From positions 62,001-126,000 of the forward strand of contig OY783217.1 in assembly GCA_963678705.1 (NCBI GenBank): a stretch of DNA of 64,000 nt, written 5' to 3'. Below the pieces are notes generated by a model. That model saw nothing but the letters and a program-made list of their open reading frames with translations, made no database searches and was not told the origin of the DNA. Position 1 is the stretch's first letter; each line of letters begins with the position of its first letter. This DNA comes from Panorpa germanica (taxonomy: Eukaryota > Arthropoda > Insecta > Mecoptera > Panorpidae). A program made the translations under genes and the position numbers. This document shows positions 4,728 to 31,600 of this stretch, piece by piece.

Positions 4728-5178
4728 GCCCAGTCATTATAGTAAGTTCACCTCGGAATTCGAGATACCCAGCTGTAAGTCTGTAAATACTTGTATATTG
4801 ACACCCTAAAAGTTGTCTCAAAACCTACATATGGTAGGGTGTGCGCAACTATTAAATTTCAAGGTCAAAGGTCACAAAAATCTGTTTTTTGCGCTTTTTT
4901 TGTAAATATCTCATTTCCTATGGGTTTTTTGCTATTTGTATTTATTATCAATATTGTAGAATACAAAATTCTCTACAAATTTTGTTTAAAAAAATTTTTT
5001 ATACGGTGAACCGTTTTCAAGATAGAGGGCGGAGAGCGCGCGGTCACAGGATCACTTCAGGTCAACCGGTGCCTCCGGTCGAAAACGCGCCATATATAGT
5101 TGATGAACTATCGATAAATCAATGATTATAAATATTTGTCAATTTTTATTAACTGTTATATTATATTTTATCATTTTT
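4728..5178 (+). repeat. Left terminal inverted repeat
   Basis: Inverted match of 6656-7114. It contains a GC-rich block near 5025-5090 (GGGCGGAGAGCGCGCGGTC) inside otherwise AT-rich DNA. Confidence 0.88.
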
Positions 5179-5442
5179 TTCCCAACCTATCCACTTTTTA
5201 TTCAGTATTAATTTATTTAACAACACTTACCTGTCCATGTAATTGCAGAAATTGTTAATGAAAATATAGGAATTATATTTGAATTTTAACCTAATTAATA
5301 TTAATAACTTCTTATATGATGAAAAAAAAAAAACAAATAAATTATGAATTATTCTTTTTATTAAAAAATATCATTCAATACACATATTTTTATTTAAAGT
5401 AAAAAAATGGAATAAAGGGTACAAAAACTACAATTTATAATT

Positions 5443-6571
5443 TTAATCATCTTCTTCCTCTTCATCGTCGTCTTCTGGCTGCTGGTAAATTTCAAACTGG
5501 TCTTCATTATCGTCTTCAACGACATTTGTCTCAAGTTCTTCCATGAATTCTGGGTCAAAGGTTCCATCTTCGTTAATGTCGCTCTGATATGGTAGAGCAT
5601 TGAGACAAGCTTGCCCATTACATTGGCCACAAGCTAAAGAGCATTGCAAGCCCGCTTTCCTGCATCCGCATCGCGAACCACAACCACTCTTGCAGTTGCA
5701 GAAAATTGTATTTAGCAAATCTTCTGGAGCAGGTGGTAAAATTGTCATGATAGGCTCCAGAAAATCGTTTCGCATTGCCCAACCCCATACCTGGGGTTCC
5801 AAATCATGCCCTAACCAAGTTTGTAAGTTTGTTTTTGTAAATAATTCATGTATTTATCAAAAATAATAGAAAAAGTATCTTCTCTGCTCCATACAACATG
5901 ATGAAGAAGAAATCCGCCATCAATAATGAACGTCACATTATTTTCATTGAGAACAAAATCAATTGGGCTCATGTTGTCATACAATGACGATTTTGTTGTT
6001 TTTCTCATGCCATCATTATCAAATAGAGCTGTTGGATACGGACTCAATTCATATTGAAGATATTCTTCAAGATTACTTTCAAATTGTTTGCTGACAGTAA
6101 TTCTTTGGAAGAGTAATAATGGATCCACTGCAACTTTACAATCATTTATTTTTACAGATTTGTTAACACTGGAAAGCGGCATTACTTTTTCGGAACGTTT
6201 CAACGTTTCTTCTTCATAGACTCTAATCCAATTTCGTAAGCTCTGTGGCAGTTAATTTGCTCATTTCCAACAATTCCAGAAGCTATCGATATTAACTGCG
6301 TAGTATTTGGAAAAGAATCATGGAGTTTAAACCAATCAAATAGTATATTTACGTCAGCATTGTCTTTTTTTACTCTTGAGTCTCTGGAATCTACGTGTTG
6401 CTCGGTCGACTCCAATGAGATATTACAGAACTTCTCCATTTTCTCACAAATAGTATTTGTGGCGTACATAGCATATACCCATTTACACAAAACACTTTCT
6501 TTCGTACTTCGACCACGAGATACTCCTCCTTCGGTTTTCATGGATTTCATGAGACTTTGTTCGATGACCAT
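5443..6571 (-). pseudogene. Decayed transposon protein with C-terminal CXC-type cysteine cluster
   Basis: Three open stretches in different frames read 5' to 3' on the minus strand. 6571-6200 starts MVIEQSLMKSMKTEGG with a GRSTKESVLCKWVYAM block. 6203-5811 has an IDGGFLLHHVVW block. 5802-5443 has LPPAPEDLLNTIFCNCKSGC, then a cluster of eleven cysteines (CNCKSGCGSRCGC...C...C..C...C) and an acidic tail. From memory this order occurs in a widespread uncharacterised insect protein family of mobile-element type. Here it is broken by a frame change near 6200 and by an apparent deletion near 5803-5811 that removes the middle of the protein. The cysteine pattern resembles CXC/tesmin-type DNA-binding repeats, which is inference. 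It sits wholly between the two inverted repeats, so it is probably the element's own gene. Confidence 0.7.
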
Positions 6572-6655
6572 ATCTGACCATATCTCTTAATTTTTTTTTA
6601 ATTTTAGGAAACGGTTATCAGTATTATTGAATAGATATAGATTTAATGCATGAAG

Positions 6656-7114
6656 AAAATGATAAAATATAATATAATAGTTAATAAGAATTGACAAATA
6701 TTTATAATCATTGATTTATCGATAGTTCATCAACTATATATGGCGCGTTTTCGACCGGAGGCACCGGTTGACCTGAAGTGATCCTGTGACCGCGCGCTCT
6801 CCGCCCTCTATCTTGAAAACGGTTCACCGTATAAAAATTTTTTTTAAACAAAATTTGTAGAGAATTTTGTATTCTACAATATTGATAATAAATACAAATA
6901 GCAAAAAACCCATAGGAAATGAGATATTTACAAAAAAAGCGCAAAAAACAGATTTTTGTGACCTTTGACCTTGAAATTTAATAGTTGCGCACACCCTACC
7001 ATATGTAGGTTTTGAGACAACTTTTAGGGTGTCAATATACAAGTATTTACAGACTTACAGCTGGGTATCTCGCATTCCGAGATTCTTACCTAATTTAAGC
7101 TTAAATGACTGGGC
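6656..7114 (-). repeat. Right terminal inverted repeat
   Basis: Inverted match of 4728-5178, with a few substitutions and one A-run length difference. It ends in AATGACTGGGC at 7104-7114. Confidence 0.88.
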
Positions 7115-8371: not shown

Positions 8372-8624
8372 TTTTTATTTTAAATATAATTTCTCAGGCT
8401 TCCTAAGCACGTAGCCTTTTATCGCCCCTAATATTGTTCTGCTTCTTTTTATACTTTATATCCAGACAACAAGAATGATCTATTCATGGCTACTGCTGTT
8501 ATAAATTTTGGTTTCTCTATCAGAAAGGCGGTGTTAACAGGAAGCGTCTGCGAAGTCTGTAGCACCGCCCTTTAGAGTCCATTTGTTGCCATTGCTGTAT
8601 TTTTACATTGCCACATAATGTGAT
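8372..8624 (-). pseudogene. 5'-truncated dead copy of the window's I-like retrotransposon
   Basis: Read on the minus strand it matches about 2660-2890 of the first element: end of ORF2, stop and 3' UTR. The knuckle region begins at CATTATGTGGCAATG (CATTCTGTGGCAATG in the longer copy). A CAA codon of the longer copy is TAA here (GGACTCTAAAGG), which ends the frame early. The 3' end runs into an A-rich stretch near 8372-8395. Truncation at the 5' side and decay are typical of dead LINE insertions. Confidence 0.88.
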
Positions 8625-9289: not shown

Positions 9290-12200
9290 ATGAAAGCAAG
9301 GTCAGTACATTTCTTTAATATAAATGTAGAATAATCAACGGTCCTACTCACACATTTGTAATAACCTACTTACAACTTAAATAACCCTAGAAAAACTTAG
9401 CAGCTTTTATTCGCCTTTCTCTGTGTGGGAAACAAATTTCAATATGGCTAATTTTTTAATTATCCTATTCTAAGAATCAATTGTATCTAGTCATACTTGA
9501 ATCGAGTTTTAAAGGTCTATGTTTCGAGGCCGGGTTTGTGACGGACCACCCCCGCTTGGTACGCTTCAGGCCGTGGTGCGGGGAGCTTGACGCTATGCAT
9601 GCTGACTCAATGTGTCAATGTTAAACTTAAATCCGAGCTGAGTGTTTCTATTTCTTAATATGTATTTATTTATTTCAGATATATCCTCCATCTTTATCTA
9701 TGTTTATACTTTCACGGATCTCAGAGTCATGACATTATTTCCAGGCAAAAAAGAGCTCTGCAATTTCCACCACTTGGCAGTGGTATGGGGGTAAGAACTT
9801 TTATATAGACTAAATGTTAATAATCGTATTTGAATACATAACAATTCACAGATTAATTTTTATTTGTAGATGTTTTTGGCACTTGCTATTCCGCTGGATA
9901 TTCCGAACAGAAATGTCTTTGTTTCTTATAATTTCGAAGCTAACTACGGATTGCCGTACAACTATTCGGAGACGACGTATCAGCTCACCGAGGGAGTAAT
10001 TCAGGTAGCACTTTGTTTCTTCGCGATAATTCAGTACATTCTATAAGAAGTATCTGCCAGTTCTTAATACAAGTCAATATTAAATTACCGTCTTCAGGGA
10101 CGATTGTCTTAAGGTGTGATTTTTTAATTTGATAATATTTTATTTATTTAATACCAAAAACTATTCGGTAAGCAAGAATCGTAAAAGATTTTGGTTTTAC
10201 TTGTTAATGGATTTTTTCTTTTTTTATAAAAGTCAGAATCGCATAGATATTTAAAATGTAATAAAGCAGTTCTCCATTTTAAAGAATAACGAATATAATT
10301 GCATCAATTTCAAAGAAAGGTAATTTTTCTTTTATAAAAATCTGTCTTTGAATTTAAAAAAGATTACACAAATTTGTTTGGTTTGTTATTTATTCAAAAA
10401 ATGACGCACAGATTTATTTGCGCCAAGAGTGTATGCAACCTAAATAACACTGTTTGAACTTGTAAAGATAATGAAATATATGAGCAACGCTACGTATTTA
10501 TATAATTTTTTTTGTCTTAGAAAGAGAAGCTTTATTATGTTAGTAGACGTATCTTTCAATAATTAACGCTAAATTATTAAATTGTTTAATTAAAATTAAA
10601 ATATACGTCCTATAACAAATGCAAATGCAAAAGTAAAGTGACTGCATAAGTCAAGCTAATAAAGTAGCTGTAGCTTCTGTCAACTTGACAACTGCAAAGC
10701 ATAGTATTATCTATTTTCAGCCGGATGAAGTTGTGGTCGCAACACGAAATACGAGAAGTTTGGACAGAAATTTTACATACGAAATATTGGAAAAAAAATT
10801 TGATAGGTAAATTATTATTTATATTTTTTCTAACATATTTTTTTTAAAGTTAAAGACATCTTTGAGAATTAATTCAATGTAAACTCGTGAAATTGTTAAT
10901 TTCAGTGAAGGGTTGCCCGGACGCCCCTGTCTATTGAGAACAATCTGCGAGGCATCCGAAACGCCACTGGGACACAACGGTATCGTGGGAGACGTCATGC
11001 ATGTGTTGTTCACGTAAGTTTTATGGTGAAGATAATAATAATTAGAGAATACATAAAGGGGATATTCAAAATCTCTTTTAAGGGGGTGGGTTAGGTTTCA
11101 ACTTTTATTTTTATATATTTATATTATTGTACAACATATTAAGTTTATTGTGTAAAAATTTGAAGGTGATTGGAGTAAAACTGTCGGAGATATAGAGTCT
11201 TCATCTCTCTGGTCTGCTTTCGTCACACTTAACTTTTTCAGAGTTGGTGTCCTCCAGGGTACTAACACTTAGAGTAAAATTCCTCGACATGGAATAAATC
11301 GCTTTTGGCGACCTCTCTTGGAATATTATATCTTCTACGACTAAAATTCTCGGCGACTCAACATAAGAAGGGAATGAAGAAATGTAAAGGTGTAATGTAA
11401 ATGTAATATTATACTAATTAGACGGTTAAAGTAATCAGACGATTAAACTAATCAGACCGTTAAACTAATCAGATGGTTAAATCGTGCATTCCATCAGACG
11501 GTTAAAGTAATCAAACGATTAAACTAATCAGACGGTTAAACTAATCAGACGGTTAAATCGTGCATTCCATCAGACGGTTAAAATAATAAGACGATTAAAC
11601 TAATCAGACGGTTAAACTAATTAGACGGTTAAATCATGCATTCCATCAGACTGTTAAACTAATCAGAAGTTTAACGGTTTGATTGGAATCAGACGGTTAA
11701 TTTTAACGATCTGATTGCATTCAGACGGTTAACTTTAACGGTCTGATTGCATTCAGACGGTTAACTTTAACGGTCTGATTGCATTCAGACGGTTAATTTT
11801 AACGGTCTGATTGCATTCAGACGGTTAACTTTAACGGTCTGATTGCATTCAGACGGTTAACTTTAATGGTCTGATTGCATTCAGACGGTTAACTTTAACG
11901 GTCTGATTGCAATCAGACTGTTAACATTAACGGTCTGATTGCAATCAGACTGTTACTTTAACGGTCTGATTGCAATCAGACGGTTAACTTTAACGGTCTG
12001 ATTGCAATCAGACGGTTAACTTTAACGGTTTGATTGGAATCAGACGGTTAACTTTAACTTCTGATTGGTTTAACCGTCTTAGGTTTAACAGTCCGATTGG
12101 TTTAACGATCCTATTAGTCTAACGGTCTGATTAGTTTAACGGTCTGATGGAACGAAAGTTAATTTATAATTAACCCTTCATTCCCTTCTTATGGTGAGTC

Positions 12201-12754
12201 GCCGAGAATTTTAGTTCGTAGAAGATATAATATTCCAAGAGGAGTCGCCAAATGCGGTTTATTCCATGTCGAGGAATTTTACTCTAAGTGATAGTACCCT
12301 AAGTGGTGTCCTCTCTACCTAAAAATCTACTGTACCGAATCTTTTAAAATTTTGCACACTCTTTCTTTACATAAATACCAAGGAAAAAAAAAATTGCAAT
12401 GCCTTATTTCTTGATATTTATTAATAAAAATTTCACAAAGTATTCTTCAAATGTCATTTTATCGTGTAGTAATTATAGAAATAATTAAATATTACCTGTG
12501 TCGTCAAAAAACGTTACCGAAAATATGCTTCTTTTTTATCGTTTTGAGTCACAAATTTTATAAACAAGTGAATAGGGATTATGAATTTTAAGAGCACTAT
12601 TTGTTTCTTTAGACCGTCTTCATCGCGAGAGGAAGACATGGCATCGGACTTTGCACTGGCAGAACAAACTGGTAAACTTGGCGATTGCTCTGCCTACAGC
12701 GCGGATTGTCCCGCGAGTATTCTAGATTTAGTTAGTGAAGTTTTTCATCACTGA
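9290..12754 (+). CDS. DM4/DM12-domain secreted protein, gene A (six exons)
   Basis: Exons: 9290-9300, 9679-9790, 9870-10004, 10721-10806, 10906-11013, 12613-12754; all junctions GT..AG and phase-consistent, 594 nt, 197 aa. The 11 nt first exon (ATGAAAGCAAG) joins to a hydrophobic signal peptide, then RQKRALQFPP, a dibasic stretch typical of the family. Exon 3 carries MFLALAIPLDIPNRNVFVSY and NFEANYGLP. A second basic stretch (TRNTRSLDR) precedes the DM4/DM12 core with GRPCLLRTICEASETPLGHNG and a final GDCSAYSADC. The four cysteines of the domain (CLLR, IC, DC, DC) are all present. Function unknown; secreted by inference. The paralogue at 14847-16434 has the same exon pattern, so the pair arose by tandem duplication. 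Intron 5 has been enlarged by the foldback element at 11255-12303. An AATAAA lies near 12852. Confidence 0.93.
11245..11254 (+). repeat. Target-site duplication, left copy
   Basis: TGGTGTCCTC directly abuts the left end of the foldback element and recurs at 12304-12313. Confidence 0.8.
11255..12303. mobile_element. Foldback/Mutator-like non-autonomous element with satellite core
   Basis: Outer inverted repeats of about 130 bp run from AGGGTACTA inward through CACTTAGAGTAAAATTCC, CATGGAATAAA, TTGGAATATTATATC and CTCGGCGACTCA to AAGAAGGGAATGAA on the left (11256-11386), and in reverse on the right (12172-12300). The interior is a tandem array built on CAGACGGTTAA. The 10 bp flanking duplication and long inverted repeats with internal subrepeats match Mutator-like and Foldback elements. 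No ORF is present, so it must be moved in trans. The superfamily is inferred. It is inserted in the last intron of DM4/DM12 gene A. Confidence 0.8.
11405..12150. repeat. Palindromic tandem repeat array (CAGACGGTTAA family)
   Basis: Two zones. At 11405-11690 the unit is a direct 16-17 bp repeat (ATCAGACGGTTAAACTA) in higher-order blocks that end TCGTGCATTCC. At 11690-12060 a 31-32 bp unit dominates, each unit itself an inverted pair: CAGACGGTTAACTTTAACGG followed by TCTGATTGCAT. At 12060-12150 the orientation is mostly inverted (TTTAACGGTCTGA). So the array flips orientation across its length, matching the symmetry of the outer arms. Confidence 0.88.
12304..12313 (+). repeat. Target-site duplication, right copy
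   Basis: Second copy of TGGTGTCCTC, identical to 11245-11254. Confidence 0.8.
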
Positions 12755-13948: not shown

Positions 13949-14441
13949 GGGCCTCCGCACACGGGGTAACTGATTGCAAACCTTAGTCCCGAATCTGCCC
14001 GAACCGAATGAGAATGCAACTGTGTTGTTAGTGAGAGAACGAACGTATATACGAATGAGATAAAACATACGGCACGAACATAACTAAATTGATTTCAAAC
14101 TAGTTTTGAGTACGTTTGCCGAGAGTCTATTCCTTGGTCGCAGAGCATCCTTGGTTGCATGCTTTTGATGATGACATCATCAACAGTGCACGAATACTAT
14201 TCAAGAATATTTAAATACATACATACAATCAAATACGACACAATAGAATCCCATCTTTTGCTATTGTTAGCAATTCTATAGAGTCACGATACACGGCTCG
14301 ACTACCAGTTTGGTTTCATTCGTGCCTTGTGTTTTATCTCACTCGTATACACGTTCGTTCTCTCACTAACAACACAGTTCCATTCTCATTCGGTTCGGGC
14401 AGATTCGGGGCTAAGTTTTGCAACCCCATGTGCGGGGGGCC
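13949..14441. mobile_element. Tourist-like (PIF/Harbinger-type) MITE, copy 1
   Basis: 493 bp with long imperfect inverted repeats. The left begins GGGCCTCCGCACACGG and the right ends in the reverse form (TGCGGGGGGCC). Inner parts also pair: CGAATCTGCCCGAACCG, TTGTTAGTGAGAGAACG and GAGATAAAACA on the left recur inverted on the right. TAA flanks both ends (13946-13948 and 14442-14444), the 3 bp duplication of PIF/Harbinger elements. It carries no coding capacity. A second copy with the same flank pattern is at 28594-29127. Confidence 0.85.
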
Positions 14442-17890: not shown

Positions 17891-20800
17891 TCAGTAGATC
17901 CAGTTAACGGGAACCCACTGGTGCTCCTGACTTAGTTGATCCAGTGCTTCTAAAACGCTGCGGAATGTCACGTCAAAGTCTTCATTGACAATTACTTGAT
18001 CGATGTATTTCTCGTAAGTCCTTTGTAAACAGGAACTCTCCTCCAAAGTCTTGCAGAGGTCGTCATCCTATTTTCAAAAAATATTTTTGTTTTTTAATTT
18101 ACATGAGTAATACAACATTTTGAAATTTACTAAAAGTTTAACGCTTGCGGATTATACAACCATACACTGTATGTAATTAATATACTGGAATAAAATGAAT
18201 TTGTTTTAACTAGATCGGCCACTCAAAAATGGCGCTGCTATACAGTGTCATTAGATTTTGAAATTAATTCTTTATATATTCCAAAAATTGACGGATATAT
18301 AGCTATTTATAATTTGAATTTAGTTTTACTGCTTAATTTTTAGCCATATTTTATATCTATGTTTAAGTTTAAATCTAAGTTAATTATATGTTGTTCGGGA
18401 TAGATATGTATCATAAGTAGAAATTTTATTTATGCATCTCTTTTACACTCCGTTGTATAGATGCAATTCTTAATAGTTACATTAATGATTAATTTGGAAT
18501 TACGATGCAATACACATAATACCACTAGATATTTGAGCATAGAGCTATAATAAACTATGTCCTAAATATAAATATCTTACCTCATACAGCGAAGCCAGGG
18601 ACTCCAAAGTTTTGGCGCGCCGAGAGCTGAACCTGATGGAGCTTTGTCTGTCAAACTACATGCGGTACAACACGTATTAATAACATAAACATAAAATGTA
18701 AAAAATAACACAAAACATCAAAATAGTAATATTCAAAATTACAAATAGATTTAAGTCAGGCTATGCTGGGGATGCTGAGTTTTAGAGCAGTAAAAATAAT
18801 GTTTCATTTATATTTTATTAGTCAATTGGGTAGTATCCTATTTTTTTATGGTATATAATAAAATTTTAATGAAAGCTATATGTAGTTTTTTTTTATTATT
18901 TTGTTAAATCACAAAACCGATCAAACTGAACTGAACCGCGATGATCTCTTCATAGGATTTAATGTTTTTATTTTGTTAACTCTTTAATGCGTACTTTTAA
19001 TTTCTCAGTTGTTCTTTAATTCAATAATAATTGTACATTTAAACTTCTAATTTATATCAATATAACGATTTTACAGAATTTGAGAGCATGGAAACTACCC
19101 AATTATGTATAGATTAAATAAATTCAGGCAATAAAATTATACGAAACAAAGTACGAGCTGACCATGCTTTAATATTAAGGTGAAACGATACTTAAGCCAT
19201 TTTTTCTAGCGAAATATAGATGGCGATACTATACAGCAGGTCAAATATTATCAAAAAAAAACCATGTTTTTTTATGTTTAAATCGTTTTATGTAAGTAAC
19301 TATAAACGCGAATCAAAATCTAAAACTGCAATTAGTTAGATGAATAACGTAACCGCAAAAATAAGTTTTGAAAATGAATATTGCTATATTTTCTAGTTAA
19401 ACTCCAATTTATATTTATAAAATTTATGACAAACCCTTAGAAATGTTACCAGTCATTGGAAAAATTGGAATTTAACTAGAAAATATAGCAATATTCATTT
19501 TCAAAACTTATTTTTGCGGTTCCAACTCATTAAAAGTCAGTGGAAGAAAGCTTAAAAGGTAGATATGTTATTCATCTATCTAATTGCAGTTTTAGATTTT
19601 GATTCGCGTTTATAGTTACTTACATAAAACGATTTAAACATAAAAAAACATGATTTTTTTTTATAATATTTAACCTGCTGTACAGTATCGCCATCTATAT
19701 TTCGCGAGAAAAAATGGCCAAGTATCGTTTCACCTTAAGGTAGTTATATGATAATATTTATCTAGAAACAACAAAAAAAAACAGAATTAATGTACACGTG
19801 TATCTTGATCTTAAATGATCTAAAGCCCGCCATGTACAGCAGTTTTGCTGAAATAATTGAACAACCAAATAGCCAATAACGGTTATAATAGCTTTACAGC
19901 ATTAAAGAAGGACACAGGACAAAAACATCTGAGGCAACTGTCCTTCGCGAAGGAGTACGGCCCCGAATCTAGTCTCCACTGATAGTAAAAGTTATTATTT
20001 TACACAACTACCTTAAGATTGTTTGCTAAGTCATTCTGTTGCATCTAATTAGAAAATGCAAATCAACGAATGCAAGTTATTAGAACTGAACTAGGAGAAG
20101 TCAGCAAGTTAATTACCGATAGATTTCTGCTGGATGTGCCAGTCGACCGCGAATGATTATAGAGCTGCTTGAGTTGCTCCATACCTGGGGCAGCTATGAA
20201 TATAACGTATGGCATGAACTCCGTACTGTTGTGGAGCATCTTCAAAGCACCAGGAGCACAATCTAGTACGCACATTTTACCTGGAATGTTATGAATTGTT
20301 AAGTTATTACAAATTTTAAAATCATGGTTCAATTCTTCTAGAAGATTTTACCTTGTCTTATAACGTCTCTTATTGTGTCTAAGTGGGTTCCGTATAAATG
20401 ACCATTGTGTTCGCCGTGTTCCAGGAATTTGTGTTCCTTAATTTCGAGCTCCATCGCTTCTCTTTCAGCAAACCAGTAACTGCGGCCATTCTCCTCGAGT
20501 ACTCTCGGGGGACGAGATGTATCTAATTATATAAAACGATTATTCCTTTTAGGTATGCACTTAATAAACACACAAGTTGATCCCGCCCAGAATACCCATT
20601 TTGATTTTGTCGTTCTTAATCTACTTACATGGTACAATGGTTCCAAACTTCTCCGGATCGCTATTAATTAACCTATTTTTTAGCGTTCTGCGGCCCACGC
20701 CTTGAGAACCGATTAGAATTAATGTCTTCCTCTTAAACGGCGGCATTCTTGTTACCTCCTCGTAGCACATAATATCAGCTTTGTCGAATTGGCCGTTGCT

Positions 20801-22625
20801 GTGCGAGTGATACATCGTTTTACGTTTCTTTTTTGATATCTAAAAATAAAATAATAGTTGAAAAAAAAAAGTTTCACTAAAAAAAAACTCCAGCAAAATG
20901 TAGATCTTACTCTTGTTCCGCAAATGCTGATTTTGTGCACGTAGTCCGCCTCTGGAGGAACGTAGGCCTTACGTCTTTCCTCCAGTTCCTGTGATGGGAT
21001 TAACCCGGCGGGACCCGTGCTGCCTACACGCTTAGCTTGCCACCAATTTGGATCTTTATTGTCTACGATCTATATTAACAAATTTGAGATTGTAATATTA
21101 AGTAATTATATTTTCACATAAAAAACCATAAGCAAAATTAAGTCTACATTAGGGTATTTTAAATCTTTCGAAGCTTTAGTACTGAACAACATTTCTTTCC
21201 AACACATTTTATGTTTCAGCACACCCACCTAGCAAACCATAAAAAATGTTGCAGAGAAATGTAGCTCCAAACTCCACTTCATGCCTTACCTGCAAAATAT
21301 CTCCATGCTGAAATTCCAGGCCAATTTCTTTGCAGGGTAATAAGGAATCCAATTTCGGGTCATAATCAAAAAGTGCTCGCATATAACACTGCAAAAAATT
21401 CAAGTAACATTTCATAAAAAAGTAATTACAATTTTACAATATTTAGATTAATTACAGTAGAGCCCCTCACAACGCGGTTAGTGTATTGAAACGATATTTT
21501 AAAAATATATATACCATATCGTAGTCACCATTACATTTATGCCGCGTTGTTGCGAATGTACGCTTTATGAACTCGCTTTATTCGGGGGTCTACAGTTTTA
21601 TTATTTATTATGTAAAAAGTGAGTGTAGAAATTGTGCTACCCAGAGGTGTATGTATGCATTTGAGGAGAGAGATTGTATATAAGAGTTGAGATATTGATG
21701 TCTGTCGGAATATCTGATGTAAAATTCTACTTCTAAAAATATGTTTTTTTTTTAATGTGTGACGTCACTTGTGCTGGTTCACAATGTGTGACAAGACGTC
21801 TGAATGGGTAATATGTGAAATATATCATAAAACTATTAGATTACGGTTTAATATAAATTTATGAATCTTAAACATAATAAACACTACTTTCACTAATATT
21901 ATAGTCTTCCAAATAGTCGGTAATATATATATATATATTATATATATATTTTTTTTTTTGTGGTGAGGAGGAGAAATCTTCCACAAGACTTACTCCTGCA
22001 ATCCCTTAGCAGGAAGTGTTGGATTCACTCTCTTGTGAGGGCGCCTACCAACTAAAACTCCCCCTCTCTTCTTCTAGACCACAGTCTGGGACCGCATAGC
22101 ATTACTTCAAACTGGGTCTTGCTCTTACTCTATTTTTTGTTCACTGCCGCTTCCTTTTTCTTTATTACTGATGTAGCAAAGTCGCGGATGGCATTCCAGT
22201 GTTCTTCGTTGGCCAGCATTACGTCTACAAGATTGTCCACTGTGAGAGTCGCTTGAGTGATGCGCTGCGCCCGTTCTCTTTCCATTGTCCATTGCTTACA
22301 CTTAAAGAACGTATGTTCTGGTGTATCCGTATCACCGCAATACCAGCATTCTGCGGTATCCCTTATGTGGAATCTATTTAGATAGGCTCCATAACAGCTA
22401 TGCCCTCCTAGAAGTTGGGTGATGTAGTAGTCGTATATGTAGTAGTAGTATATGTAGTAATATATATATATATATATATATAGTGAGAGTTGCGGTACCA
22501 GATTGTGGTCTAGATGAAGAGAGGGGGAGTTTTAGTTGGTAGGCGCTCTTCCAGCGAGGGTGAATCCAACACGTCCCGACGGGCTGTCAGGCGACAGTCT
22601 TATAGAAGATTTCTCCTCCTTACCA

Positions 22626-22674
<49 letters not shown>

Positions 22675-25600: not shown

Positions 25601-28600
25601 ATACTGTTTCTGGTGTCTCACATAGTCGTACGAGCCACACCTCTACTACATTGCACGTGCCTGCTGATAAAACAACAATTTGGTTAATAGATACTTGTCT
25701 TCATTATAACCTTAAAATACTAATGCTGAGGCGTAGGTCTAACTGCGGTATAATTCGCAAATTGTGTAACAAACACATGAAATCAGATGAACCTACATCT
25801 ACTGCGATTTTAATTCCACATTTTAGCATATATAATTAAAGCCGCGAGAAACCACGCAGAATTATTCCACAGTCGGACCTAAGCCTAAATGACATATGTA
25901 TGTACTTAATACATACAACAGGAGTATGTAATGTATATGCACGAGTCTGTATCAGATTCAATTACTCTCTGTTATCTGAGAAATAACATTTCCTAATGTA
26001 AATAAAGTAGTAAAAATGATAAGGAATGGATATGTATGCAGGCAATTTTAATTGCCAGTACATTTGTGCAGTTTATGAATTATGCAAGTCATATAAATAA
26101 AATACAATCTTCATGTAAGAATTTAAATACTTCTTTCGAATTTTTTGAATTATAAACGTATGACAATTGCATACGGTAACTAACTATTTCTTGAATTACA
26201 GGCAGGGAGCAAATGTCATTAGTTTGATTTCTTTTATTTAATAATTAAGACATCAATGAAATTATAACAATGTGTGTGCTCTAGTAAATAGGTTATAAAT
26301 AACACAGAAACTTCATTAATTTAAAAGTACTTGCACACTCAAAGAACCGTAAAGATAGTAATGATTCAAAACTGCGATTTGCCCGACCTAAAATTTCAAA
26401 CTAACTAGTCTAGTTTCTAAAGTACTATTAACCATGTGAGAAATATGATCATTATATTTATATTATTCTATTTATATTATTCTTAGTGAAGTAGAGCAAA
26501 GATTAAGACAAAATCTTACTTGATAATATCATGTAACTATTCTTAATGTATGTAAGTATCAGTACATATGTAATTAATAAATGATTTAATTGAATAAAAT
26601 AAAATCAGTAAAATGTTATTCTTGTATGAATAAGAATTGGCGCCATACTTTGTAGTTGATTAAAAGATCATGAAAGCTCAACTTACGTTGGCCTGGTACA
26701 TGGCACACGGATGAAAATAATAAAAGTTTAACAATCAAAATATATTATTAATTAAATGTAGAATATTTTAAATATTGCAAGCATAAGGTGGGCGTCACCA
26801 TAAACGTTCCACGTACAAAAACCACACACACATATAAATGAACATATACATATGTAAACAAACAGGTAAGCAATATACATGCACGCTGCAAACAAAGGTG
26901 ACGTCATGGTTGAAAACAACATATTCGACTAAAAATATTTACTTATATTAAATACTATTTTCAAAATACACGTCCCCTTCAAGATTAAACTACTCTACGG
27001 GAACATAAAATCGATAACTCTCATCGCTCATAGAAAATAACGCCCTAACCTCAAAACGAATATGTGTAGTAAGATATATAATAAACTTACAAGATATTTC
27101 TTTCCTTGAATTCCATAAACTGTTATTGTTTACCCCTTATTTATTTGTCTACAACGAAAATTAATGTTTTCAAAACATATGGTTTATATTTAACACTGAT
27201 AATTTATATCCAACTTAAAAGGCACTGTTTTGTTAATGTACATTAAACAGGTAGACTTAGAATGACAAAGGACAGGTTGGTATTCACCGTTCGCGTTCAT
27301 TTGATATATTGAAACTAAAATAAATGTTCAAAACAAGTATTCGAAAGCCGTGAAGCCTTGGAACTGGAAGTAACACACACACATGTAAGCATATTAGCTT
27401 AGCTGTTCATTAGCGTAGCGTTTTTATTCATGTCGCGTTTGTTCGACTGAATGTGTGTGTTGTGTTTGTGTGTTGTACTTAGCTCGGTTACTTTACAACA
27501 GGTTTCTAGTTCAAAAAGTCACCACGTTTGCGGCAGCGCTGTACCATGTAAATAATGCGTTATATATATTTTTGATGTTGCTTAAAAACTTATTGTAATT
27601 GATCGGCCAAGCATACTTCCACCGTAGAATTGTTACATACTCTGACGATGATTGTTCTTTTATTCACAGTCTCAACAAGAGAAACATTGACAAGATTCTA
27701 TTTTCGGTTAGCAGATCCAAGATCGAACAGAACCTGCGAGGTGAAAGTTATACTGGATAGAATTTGCACTGCACTGACATAGAATGAAATCTTGGATTGT
27801 ACAAATCGTTATCGCTTGCAAATTATAGAAACGTTTATTCTATTGATAAACGTCAAGGCGTCAGTCAAAGTGTCATCATAAATATTTTCAATAGATTGCA
27901 TAAATTTGCATCATTAATAATTATGCTAGCAAGCACCCGGCTAACAATTTTACAAATGTGCAATATTAAATAAATATCAACATGTACACAAATGATTCAT
28001 TGAAATTCCAGGCAATCATTTCAAATTATAAAAAATGCAACACGTAAATTCATATCTTGTATTGTATCTAATGTAAATTTGTCACAAGTATCTTTCTATC
28101 AAGTGTACAATTCGATATTCGGTAAGAAGTGTCTTGTGTCTCTAATAAAATTAAAATCACGTTCTGCAATTATCATCTATCTCTCTTTCACGTATTTAAT
28201 TAAAAATAATTTCCCAATAAAAGAGCAAGATAGCTAATAAAATTTGATTATGTTAATTAACAGTAAGACAATAACAGTAACTCGCTTTGCATTGTTAGAA
28301 ACAGAGAGCGAGAGAGCAATAAGTGACACTTGTATTAAAAAGGGATGGATAATTTAAAGTGAAAGCAGATGAGAAGCGAGTGGAAATTTTAAACTTCAAA
28401 TCATTTGAGACTCTTCAAACTCTCACACTGGAACAGACTAGTTGCGACCGCTGACTTATTCGCAACTAACTATTTAAATGAAATGAGATTATATATTATT
28501 TAGGATCAGTTGTCGGCTGATATTGATTTATTCATTTTGTAAAATGTCAATGGCAAGAGCCGATGACCGTATATGCCATACGCCATATGCTAAGGCCTTC

Positions 28601-31600
28601 AGCACACGACGCGACTAGTTGCAAACCTTTGCCCCGAATCTGCCCGAACCGAATGTCATTACAACTGTGTTGTTAGTAAAAGAATGAACGTGTTTACGAG
28701 TGAGATAAAACACACGGCACGAACGTAACTAAACTGATTTCAAACTGGTTTTGAGCATATATTCAGCGACTAGATTTCTCGGTCGCAGGGCACTGTTGGT
28801 TTCATGATGACATCATCAACAGAGATGTTTACGAAAAGTATTTAAATACATACATACAATCAAATATAACACAACAGAATCCCCTGTTTTGCTATTGTTC
28901 AAAATTCTATAGAGTCACGATACACGGCTCGACATGGTTCGTGCTCGTTTTCGTTGAAAACTTCGTTTCGCGTTTAGTTTGCAATCCCTTGATCCGTGTG
29001 CCTTCCCTCGTGTTTTATCTCACTCGCATACAAGTTCGATCTCTCACTAACAACAGTTGTAATCACATTCGCTTCGGGTAGATTCGGGGCTAAGGTTTGC
29101 AACCAGTCGTCTCGTGTGCGGTGGGCCTAAAGCGTCATTTACAGAGGTGACGACATTTGTTGTTTTAACAAACCGGTCTGAATTGTGTCTGAATTTTAGT
29201 CGAATAAAAAACGAACTAAGTGGGTGTGCATTTTAAACTTACGAGTAAATGCGACTTGAATTAACCAATTGCTTGTTAATAAGGAATTTAGACTTATATA
29301 AGTTTGATAATAACTATTTTCATCATTTTTTCAAGATGGCGACGGACTACCATGTTGGATAACTTGCAGTTTTCATTAACAGCCCTAACTTTAAAACATA
29401 TCCAAGAATTAGAACTACCGGGCCTCATGTAAAGTAAAAGTGTATAGTTCCCGGGCTAATCCGGGTACGTTTTTCAGAGATGTGTCACAAAAGCAAGCAG
29501 TGTGACAAAAATATGATAATGCAATAATAAAGCAGTAATATAATTCAGACACAAGCGTTATACTCGGATTACAACATATTACATTAATTAAAGATCGGGT
29601 CATTTACATTAGTGAAGGGTCGTGTGTCAAATGATTAGGTTACTGCGAGTGTAATATGACCCCTTGCGCCTTGCCCCTTGCCCCAGTCTATTCGCAACCC
29701 ACGGCAAAAGCATCTAATTCAATTCAACGTACTGGAACTGACTCACTAATTATGTATTTAATGAATTTAAATTGCAATCGTATTTAGTTTCAGAAAAAAG
29801 GTGGGGGTAAGGTACGAACAGAGGGGAAAACGAATTTGCCTTTTGGTACTATTGCAACAGTCAATATGTCACACTAAGATATTAGGTGCTCTTGTTCAAT
29901 AAGTACAAACACTTTTTATTTCAAATACCGTTAGTTCCATTCATGATTCTATTGTATCTTGTAGTACATACGGCTTGTTGAACCATGTTATTCATAATGT
30001 GCATTTAACAGGTTATATCTCAGGTTACAACTCTAAGCCGCGGCATACCCTCTTTCCACCAATGGTGGCTTGTGTCATATATCTTAATTTCTATAAAACT
30101 GTACTATATATTGATGAAGTTATTTTTTAATAACTCCTTATATGTTAAGAGATATTACCAATTAAAAAAGTTATTTTGTCTCTTTAATTATTAAAGGAAT
30201 TCAACGTTGTACACATTCCAAATGCATGTGACATCACAACCGGTGCCAACCTTACAGCTCATAAATCTCTGCTATATGTATTTATATATCAAAATATCAA
30301 ATATTATTTACAGCTATTTCAAGGAACAATAAAGTTTCAGTATTATGTCTGCTGTAACAGGGATAAATAAAATAAAAACTTATTATTCTTTGACTTGATT
30401 ATTTCGACTACCAACAGCTACAAAACATTACCACAGCACTGACCTACTTAACAAATAACTACCGTTAAAATTCATTTCACGTCATACAAATATGGCCGAC
30501 CATTTCTAGCTCTAAAACTACAATTCAAATTTTTAATTGCTATATCTCCGTCAACATTTAAATATTTAATAAAATAGACACGCCCATTTGAAACTATATG
30601 AATGTTGAAGATAATAGACATAATTTACTGAGGTATTATTATAGCAACGTACCTTAACCAATGACGTCACTGCCGGACTATCGAGAAGACCTTGCAAGAA
30701 TACGAGATCAGTGTCATTCGCTCCACGATCTCCCAGTGATCCTATGTTATCACGAACATGTTGGAAAGCAGCTGAAAATATAAATTAAAATAAATTATAA
30801 AAGAATGACTTACAGATCTATTGTTCTTTGATAAAAATAAATTATTATAATAATTTATTTTACGTGGGAGCTAAAAAAAAGGCAATTTAATGTATGGTTA
30901 AAATAAACTATTGTGATTATTTCGTTCGATAAACTTGGGGGGGGGGCTTGGGGCCCGTTTTTGTTATCGGCCTGAAAATTTTCTCGTACAGAGCTGGGTA
31001 ATTAAAATTCAATGTGTAATAAGTAGCGAACTGTCCTAAAGGGAAAACAAGCTCTCTTAAATGAAGTTAAAAATATTTGAGCAATAAAGGTAAGCGTCTA
31101 CAGGTTCGCACGGCTCACATCTGTGACAACAACGGACGTACCTGTGCTGTATACCCCTTCCTTCTCCCTTCCCTTCCCTTCCCTTCCAGTTCGGTACGAC
31201 AAATTGCAAGCCATGCGAATCTGAGGACGCTTACCATAAAAGCGCACCAGAAGATGCGAAACTTCTTTGCAGTTACCATTATTACCGTCTTTCTCACTCA
31301 CTCTCTTCATCTTTCCCAGCACTAGGTCTTGTTTTTTTTCTATATCACCTATCCTCATCACTACAGTATTTGTTATGTCCTTATGATGATCTGGAATTTT
31401 TTTTGCCAATTTTCTAGAGATAAGTAGTTTGATTCTATTACTAATTAGAAGCAACCCAATTAATCATAGCTCCCTTTCTATCTAAAATACAATAAAACAA
31501 ACACGAGCACGTCATATTACTCGCTTCATCCCTTAATTGCGTAATTGGTCGCTTAAATGCAATGTAATATTTACATTACATATCTTATACTAATGTGACT

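Follow-up and report, generated by a model that had tools for sequence, protein, structure and literature searches.

The window, as we call the whole 64-kb stretch of DNA that was analysed, contains a gene whose exons join in frame across a GT...AG intron up to the stop codon, and this intron is therefore the last one of the coding part. The spliced protein piece matches DM4_12 (PF07841) with an E value of 8.5e-18, in agreement with the original prediction of an insertion into the last intron of a DM4/DM12 gene, and such a gene suggests an insect as the source. The intron holds an insertion of 1,049 bp (11255-12303) enclosed by two copies of the direct repeat TGGTGTCCTC; without the insert and one copy of the repeat it would measure about 540 bp. 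Both copies are identical over 10 bp and are the only occurrences of this sequence on either strand of the window, so the 10-bp direct repeat predicted around a unit of about 1.05 kb is present as described. The insertion consists of two inverted outer arms and a core in which a single 11-bp motif is arrayed in three blocks (Table 1).

Table 1. Coordinates of the insertion, its parts and the host intron in the window.
Feature	Position	Strand	Basis
Host intron, GT...AG, 1,599 bp	11014..12612	+	flanking exons join in frame, stop codon 12752-12754
Left candidate target-site duplication TGGTGTCCTC	11245..11254	+	exact match to 12304-12313
Left outer arm, terminal inverted repeat	11255..11379 (aligned 11256-11379)	+	125-column alignment to the inverted right arm, 94.4% identity
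Left array, motif CAGACGGTTAA forward only, 17/25-bp spacing, 76-bp higher-order unit x3.4	11409..11674	+	Tandem Repeats Finder, motif order
Central array, 32-bp near-palindromic unit x12.5, forward and reverse motifs alternate	11670..12067	+	Tandem Repeats Finder, motif order, palindromy
Right array, motif reverse only, ~17-bp period x5.2	12063..12148	-	Tandem Repeats Finder, motif order
Right outer arm, terminal inverted repeat	12176..12303 (aligned 12176-12300)	-	alignment to left arm
Right candidate target-site duplication TGGTGTCCTC	12304..12313	+	exact match to 11245-11254

We infer that the two direct repeats arose by duplication of the target site. The alignment of the arms leaves just C at the left end and CTT at the right end (read inwards), and hence the direct repeats abut the ends of the element. 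In the simplest reading of these remainders, the ancestral terminus would have been CTTAGGGTACTA..., with two bases gone from the left end. In the window (32% G+C) but outside the element, 16 of 2,431,200 pairs of positions carry identical 10-mers spaced 1040-1079 bp apart. As a control, we collected inverted-repeat pairs within the window using a 14-base seed, a spacing of 60-3000 bp and ungapped extension, which may miss ends whose arms contain gaps. The scan returned 46 distinct outer ends, 19 of which belong to the element itself (1 to the outer arms and 18 internal) and 27 lie elsewhere. When direct repeats were allowed to start no more than 5 bp from both ends, the foldback element had its 10-bp repeat, while none of the 27 ends elsewhere in the window had one of at least 7 bp; a single end had 6 bp and the other 26 had none of at least 6 bp. 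Relaxing the limit to 24 bp gave, among the same 27 ends, one repeat of 8 bp as the best, two of 7 bp and eight of 6 bp. One or two of the outer bases may match by chance, in which case only 8-9 bp were duplicated.

The outer arms are inverted copies of each other, as had been predicted, although they measure about 125 bp and not about 130 bp; 118 of the 125 alignment columns are identical, and one column is a single-base gap. The element thus has long inverted repeats that contain internal tandem subrepeats, which is the anatomy of a foldback element. Predicted folds suggest that it can fold back end to end. The RNA fold of the element has a predicted energy of -576.7 kcal/mol, compared with -236.8 +/- 5.7 kcal/mol for 20 dinucleotide shuffles, and 120 of its pairs join the left and right outer arms. 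For a single DNA strand (11246-12312), one long hairpin is predicted at -337.5 kcal/mol, a value computed without a shuffle control. No open stretch within the element exceeds 53 codons in any of the six frames, and a stretch of 70 codons spans its left border; the element is therefore non-autonomous, and the original prediction of a non-autonomous element with foldback anatomy holds.

The core had been described as a tandem array, which it is, but it is not a plain one because it has an inverted symmetry of its own. Allowing up to 2 substitutions, we counted 26 forward (CAGACNGTTAA) and 16 reverse (TTAACNGTCTG) copies of the motif. The series begins with 14 forward copies in steps of 17 or 25 bp, continues with alternating reverse and forward copies in steps of about 19 and 13 bp, and ends with 4 reverse copies at irregular steps of 15-34 bp. 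Tandem Repeats Finder resolved the left part at two levels, as 12.3 copies of 17 bp (11409-11633) and 3.4 copies of 76 bp (11420-11674), and reported 94% matches for the 32-bp units of the centre and 76% for the 17-bp units on the right. In the consensus 32-mer, read as a circle, 26 of 32 positions are self-complementary; shuffles of the 32-mer averaged 15.8, and 4 of 20,000 reached 26. The borders of the central array also mirror each other, with AATCAGAAG at 11661-11669 and CTTCTGATT at 12058-12066. The three full 76-bp units share 92-96% identity, and adjacent 32-bp units resemble each other more closely than units placed in random order (0.955 versus 0.935, P 0.005; 10 of 11 listed units, with a 31-bp unit left out). 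Both results are as expected if units were duplicated locally, through slippage or unequal exchange.

At the variable base of the motif, 22 of 26 forward copies and 14 of 16 reverse copies have G on the + strand (11419-12146). Forward and reverse motifs, each read in its own sense, are thus distinct variants. No such difference is expected of a recently inverted copy, which suggests that the inversion is old or that a palindromic unit was amplified as a whole.

The element is probably a foldback-type DNA transposon that moves by cut and paste but is non-autonomous, most likely depending on a Mutator-like (MULE) transposase that another locus in the genome supplies in trans; judging from the sequence, we give this reading a probability of about 0.8. 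The foldback anatomy in the earlier Mutator-like/Foldback proposal stands; the Mutator-like superfamily is the most likely placing, on the basis of the 10-bp duplication and the repeat-bearing structure of a single copy. MULE target-site duplications are 8-11 bp long (PMC6446971), a range that includes the 10 bp found at this one copy, and the aligned arms of 124 and 125 bp are long in the sense used for MULEs, in which TIRs over 100 bp are typical (PMC5225508).

The foldback form and the satellite heart are each already known in kind, and by structural analogy Tetris, Tm1 and Muta1 are close precedents; the following comparisons draw on parts of the cited reports. The foldback element Tetris of Drosophila virilis has 8-10-bp duplications, in agreement with the 10 bp seen here, and tandem repeats inside its TIRs (PMC4079207). 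Like our element, it is non-coding and has TIRs in which an outer unique domain is followed by tandem repeats, but its repeats of about 220 bp and its TIRs of up to 1,735 bp differ from the units of 17, 32 and 76 bp found here (PMC4079207). A stretch of 37 bp is common to the Tetris repeats and the outer domain of that element, whereas the repeats of our element have no detectable similarity to the arm, and Tetris was demonstrated to be a source of satellite-like arrays (PMC4079207). In Tm1, a Mutator/Foldback family of root-knot nematodes, 45 of 53 elements are flanked by 8-10-bp duplications; its repeats are most often 14 bp long and its arms on average 93% identical (PMC3169594). It resembles the element in its composite, repeat-bearing TIRs and asymmetric outermost bases, and its repeat number varies; it differs in that a Phantom-type transposase is known and that a central palindromic array is absent from the parts of Tm1 described in the consulted text (PMC3169594).

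Of the 14 Muta families of Aedes aegypti, 12 have TIRs longer than 100 bp, and subterminal tandem repeats occur in 10 of these 12 (PMC5225508). These families are grouped as Phantom group MULEs (PMC6446971), Muta1 is termed a type 2 Foldback TE, and there are many non-autonomous derivatives with variable repeat number (PMC5225508). Long TIRs, in most Muta families, and tandem repeats are shared with our element; by contrast, Muta duplications are 8-9 bp long, the transposase is known and the repeats lie in the TIR, whereas the element has a central 32-bp array (PMC5225508). Rehavkus elements have TIRs of 26-400 bp and a minisatellite within the element (PMC6446971, PMC10218199), which precedes the 3' TIR and is accompanied by a 9-bp duplication and a PHD-finger transposase (PMC6446971); aphid Phantom elements also bear minisatellites (PMC6446971). 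In Tribolium, short arrays of the satellite DNA TCsat23 lie within the inverted termini of Rehavkus-1_TC (PMC10218199), an element of 9.5 kb with 164-bp units and, by its description, unlike the 1,049-bp element (PMC6446971, PMC10218199). Compared by description, Rehavkus has a 9-bp duplication where our element has 10 bp, which could be 9 bp plus a chance match, and the array of our element is central.

Several superfamilies and unrelated lineages have given rise to foldback structures, which counts against a firm Mutator placing. The element could belong to another superfamily, P (Galileo-like) or hAT, if a shorter duplication had been lengthened to 10 bp by chance. P/Galileo-like and hAT duplications are about 7-8 bp long, and the transposase of the P superfamily is a THAP-domain protein. 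Galileo combines a P-superfamily transposase with foldback-like TIRs that are internally repetitive and hold several transposase-binding sites. At the local base composition, the computed chance of being read as 10 bp is about 13% for an 8-bp duplication and about 5% for a 7-bp one. We consider such a placing unlikely, since it requires chance matches at two or three additional flanking bases and a 10-bp duplication disfavours the P superfamily, and since Tm1, with its comparable duplications, has a MULE-type transposase in the sections of its report consulted (PMC3169594). Tetris is limited as a MULE precedent because its own Mutator placing is a suggestion drawn from duplication length and analogy, according to the part of its report used here (PMC4079207).

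The array either arrived with the element or grew inside it. Aligned locally to the outer arm, the 17-bp and 32-bp units each scored 10, and 1,000 shuffled arms averaged 13.1 and 13.9, respectively. A derivation of the repeat unit from the arm is without support, as both scores fall below the means for shuffled arms, and the lack of similarity between unit and arm likewise leaves the origin proposed for Tetris, from a terminal transposase site, without support here. This dissimilarity would suit a genomic satellite array that had been captured or invaded by a simpler MITE, the array being older than the transposon. Forward motifs lie beside the left arm and reverse motifs beside the right, giving a symmetry about the element that extends to the mirrored borders of the central array; such mirroring about the centre is not expected of a captured array, and we regard capture as quite improbable. 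A tentative further reading, possible but on balance doubtful, is that the 32-bp unit, with one forward and one reverse motif, is a head-to-head arm junction that multiplied in tandem, so that the hairpin itself would have seeded a palindromic satellite. The orientation-specific variants are neither clearly for nor clearly against this junction model. If it were true, the element could carry a fold-seeded palindromic satellite into genes.

We detected no second copy of the arm in the 64-kb window and no copy of the motif outside the element there at up to 1 mismatch, so the original proposal that the element is spreading a satellite is conjectural. A local palindrome made by a replication or repair error in the intron and later expanded as a minisatellite would explain the strongly palindromic core, its growth by local duplication and the lack of a known second copy, but a non-transposon origin of this kind is very improbable, since transposition is what produces an exact 10-bp direct repeat at the outer edge of both arms, none of the 27 other inverted-repeat ends of the window bears a repeat of at least 7 bp within 5 bp, and the absence of the motif elsewhere in the window leaves no local source visible.

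The foldback transposon we favour would be moved by a transposase supplied in trans, which would recognise the termini and generate the target duplication. Its 11-bp motifs, at 17-bp steps, are putative extra transposase-binding sites by analogy with Galileo, a P-superfamily element in which, by the portion of the literature consulted, DNase footprint and gel-shift experiments located such sites in the repeats of the long TIRs; the repeats of Foldback and Phantom elements lie outside that evidence. The suggestion is tempered because the repeat shares nothing detectable with the outer arm. Slippage or unequal exchange would have lengthened the left arm in steps of 76 bp and the centre in steps of 32 bp.

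Taken alone, the element is a single non-autonomous insertion, and elements of its kind are on record from flies, mosquitoes, beetles and nematodes. If further copies exist, it would be a compact case of foldback transposons that grow internal arrays and place them in introns. A strong hairpin in the intronic part of a transcript could also affect splicing or small-RNA production.

Searches of other sequence collections gave no likely relatives, a result of little weight because these collections are by description not insect genomes and may omit records close to the genome of the window. Exact patterns of the arm and of the 32-mer, among them an 18-base piece of the repeat, had 0 matches in viral contigs, and blastn against phages and plasmids returned no match. 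An 18-base pattern of the arm matched 14 bacterial or archaeal contigs, which we take as chance given the length of the word and the 257 billion bases searched. A literature search with the letters of the motif found 5 papers that contain these short words, none of which, judged by titles and the beginnings of abstracts, deals with transposons.

Several other repeats lie in the window. An inverted-repeat element at 4752-7081 has 430-bp arms that are 99% complementary and enclose minus-strand ORFs, one of which carries a cysteine-rich CxC-like stretch. The only Pfam match among the three ORFs scanned had an E value of 0.16, below the cut-off of that family, and a search for a clear target duplication found none at this interval. 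It looks young and coding. Kinship of the foldback element to it was considered and rejected, as the foldback arms find no counterpart in it at E 0.01. Two related short inverted-repeat elements at 13949-14441 and 28594-29127, with ends GGGCC/GGCC and TAA on both flanks, are in our view PIF/Harbinger-like, and another short inverted-repeat element at 19179-19734, GGTGAAACGATACTT..., has TTAA on either side and is what we take to be a Kolobok- or piggyBac-like element. Rfam matches to R2_retro_el at 21958-22182 (-) and 22452-22628 (+) are inverted and a few hundred bases apart, and score 44.7 and 40.9, slightly above the 38-bit gathering score. Positions 1-2874 were recognised by eye as non-LTR retrotransposon-like sequence followed by an A-run, and the segment 2666-2874 recurs inverted at 8414-8622, where it is 90% alike.
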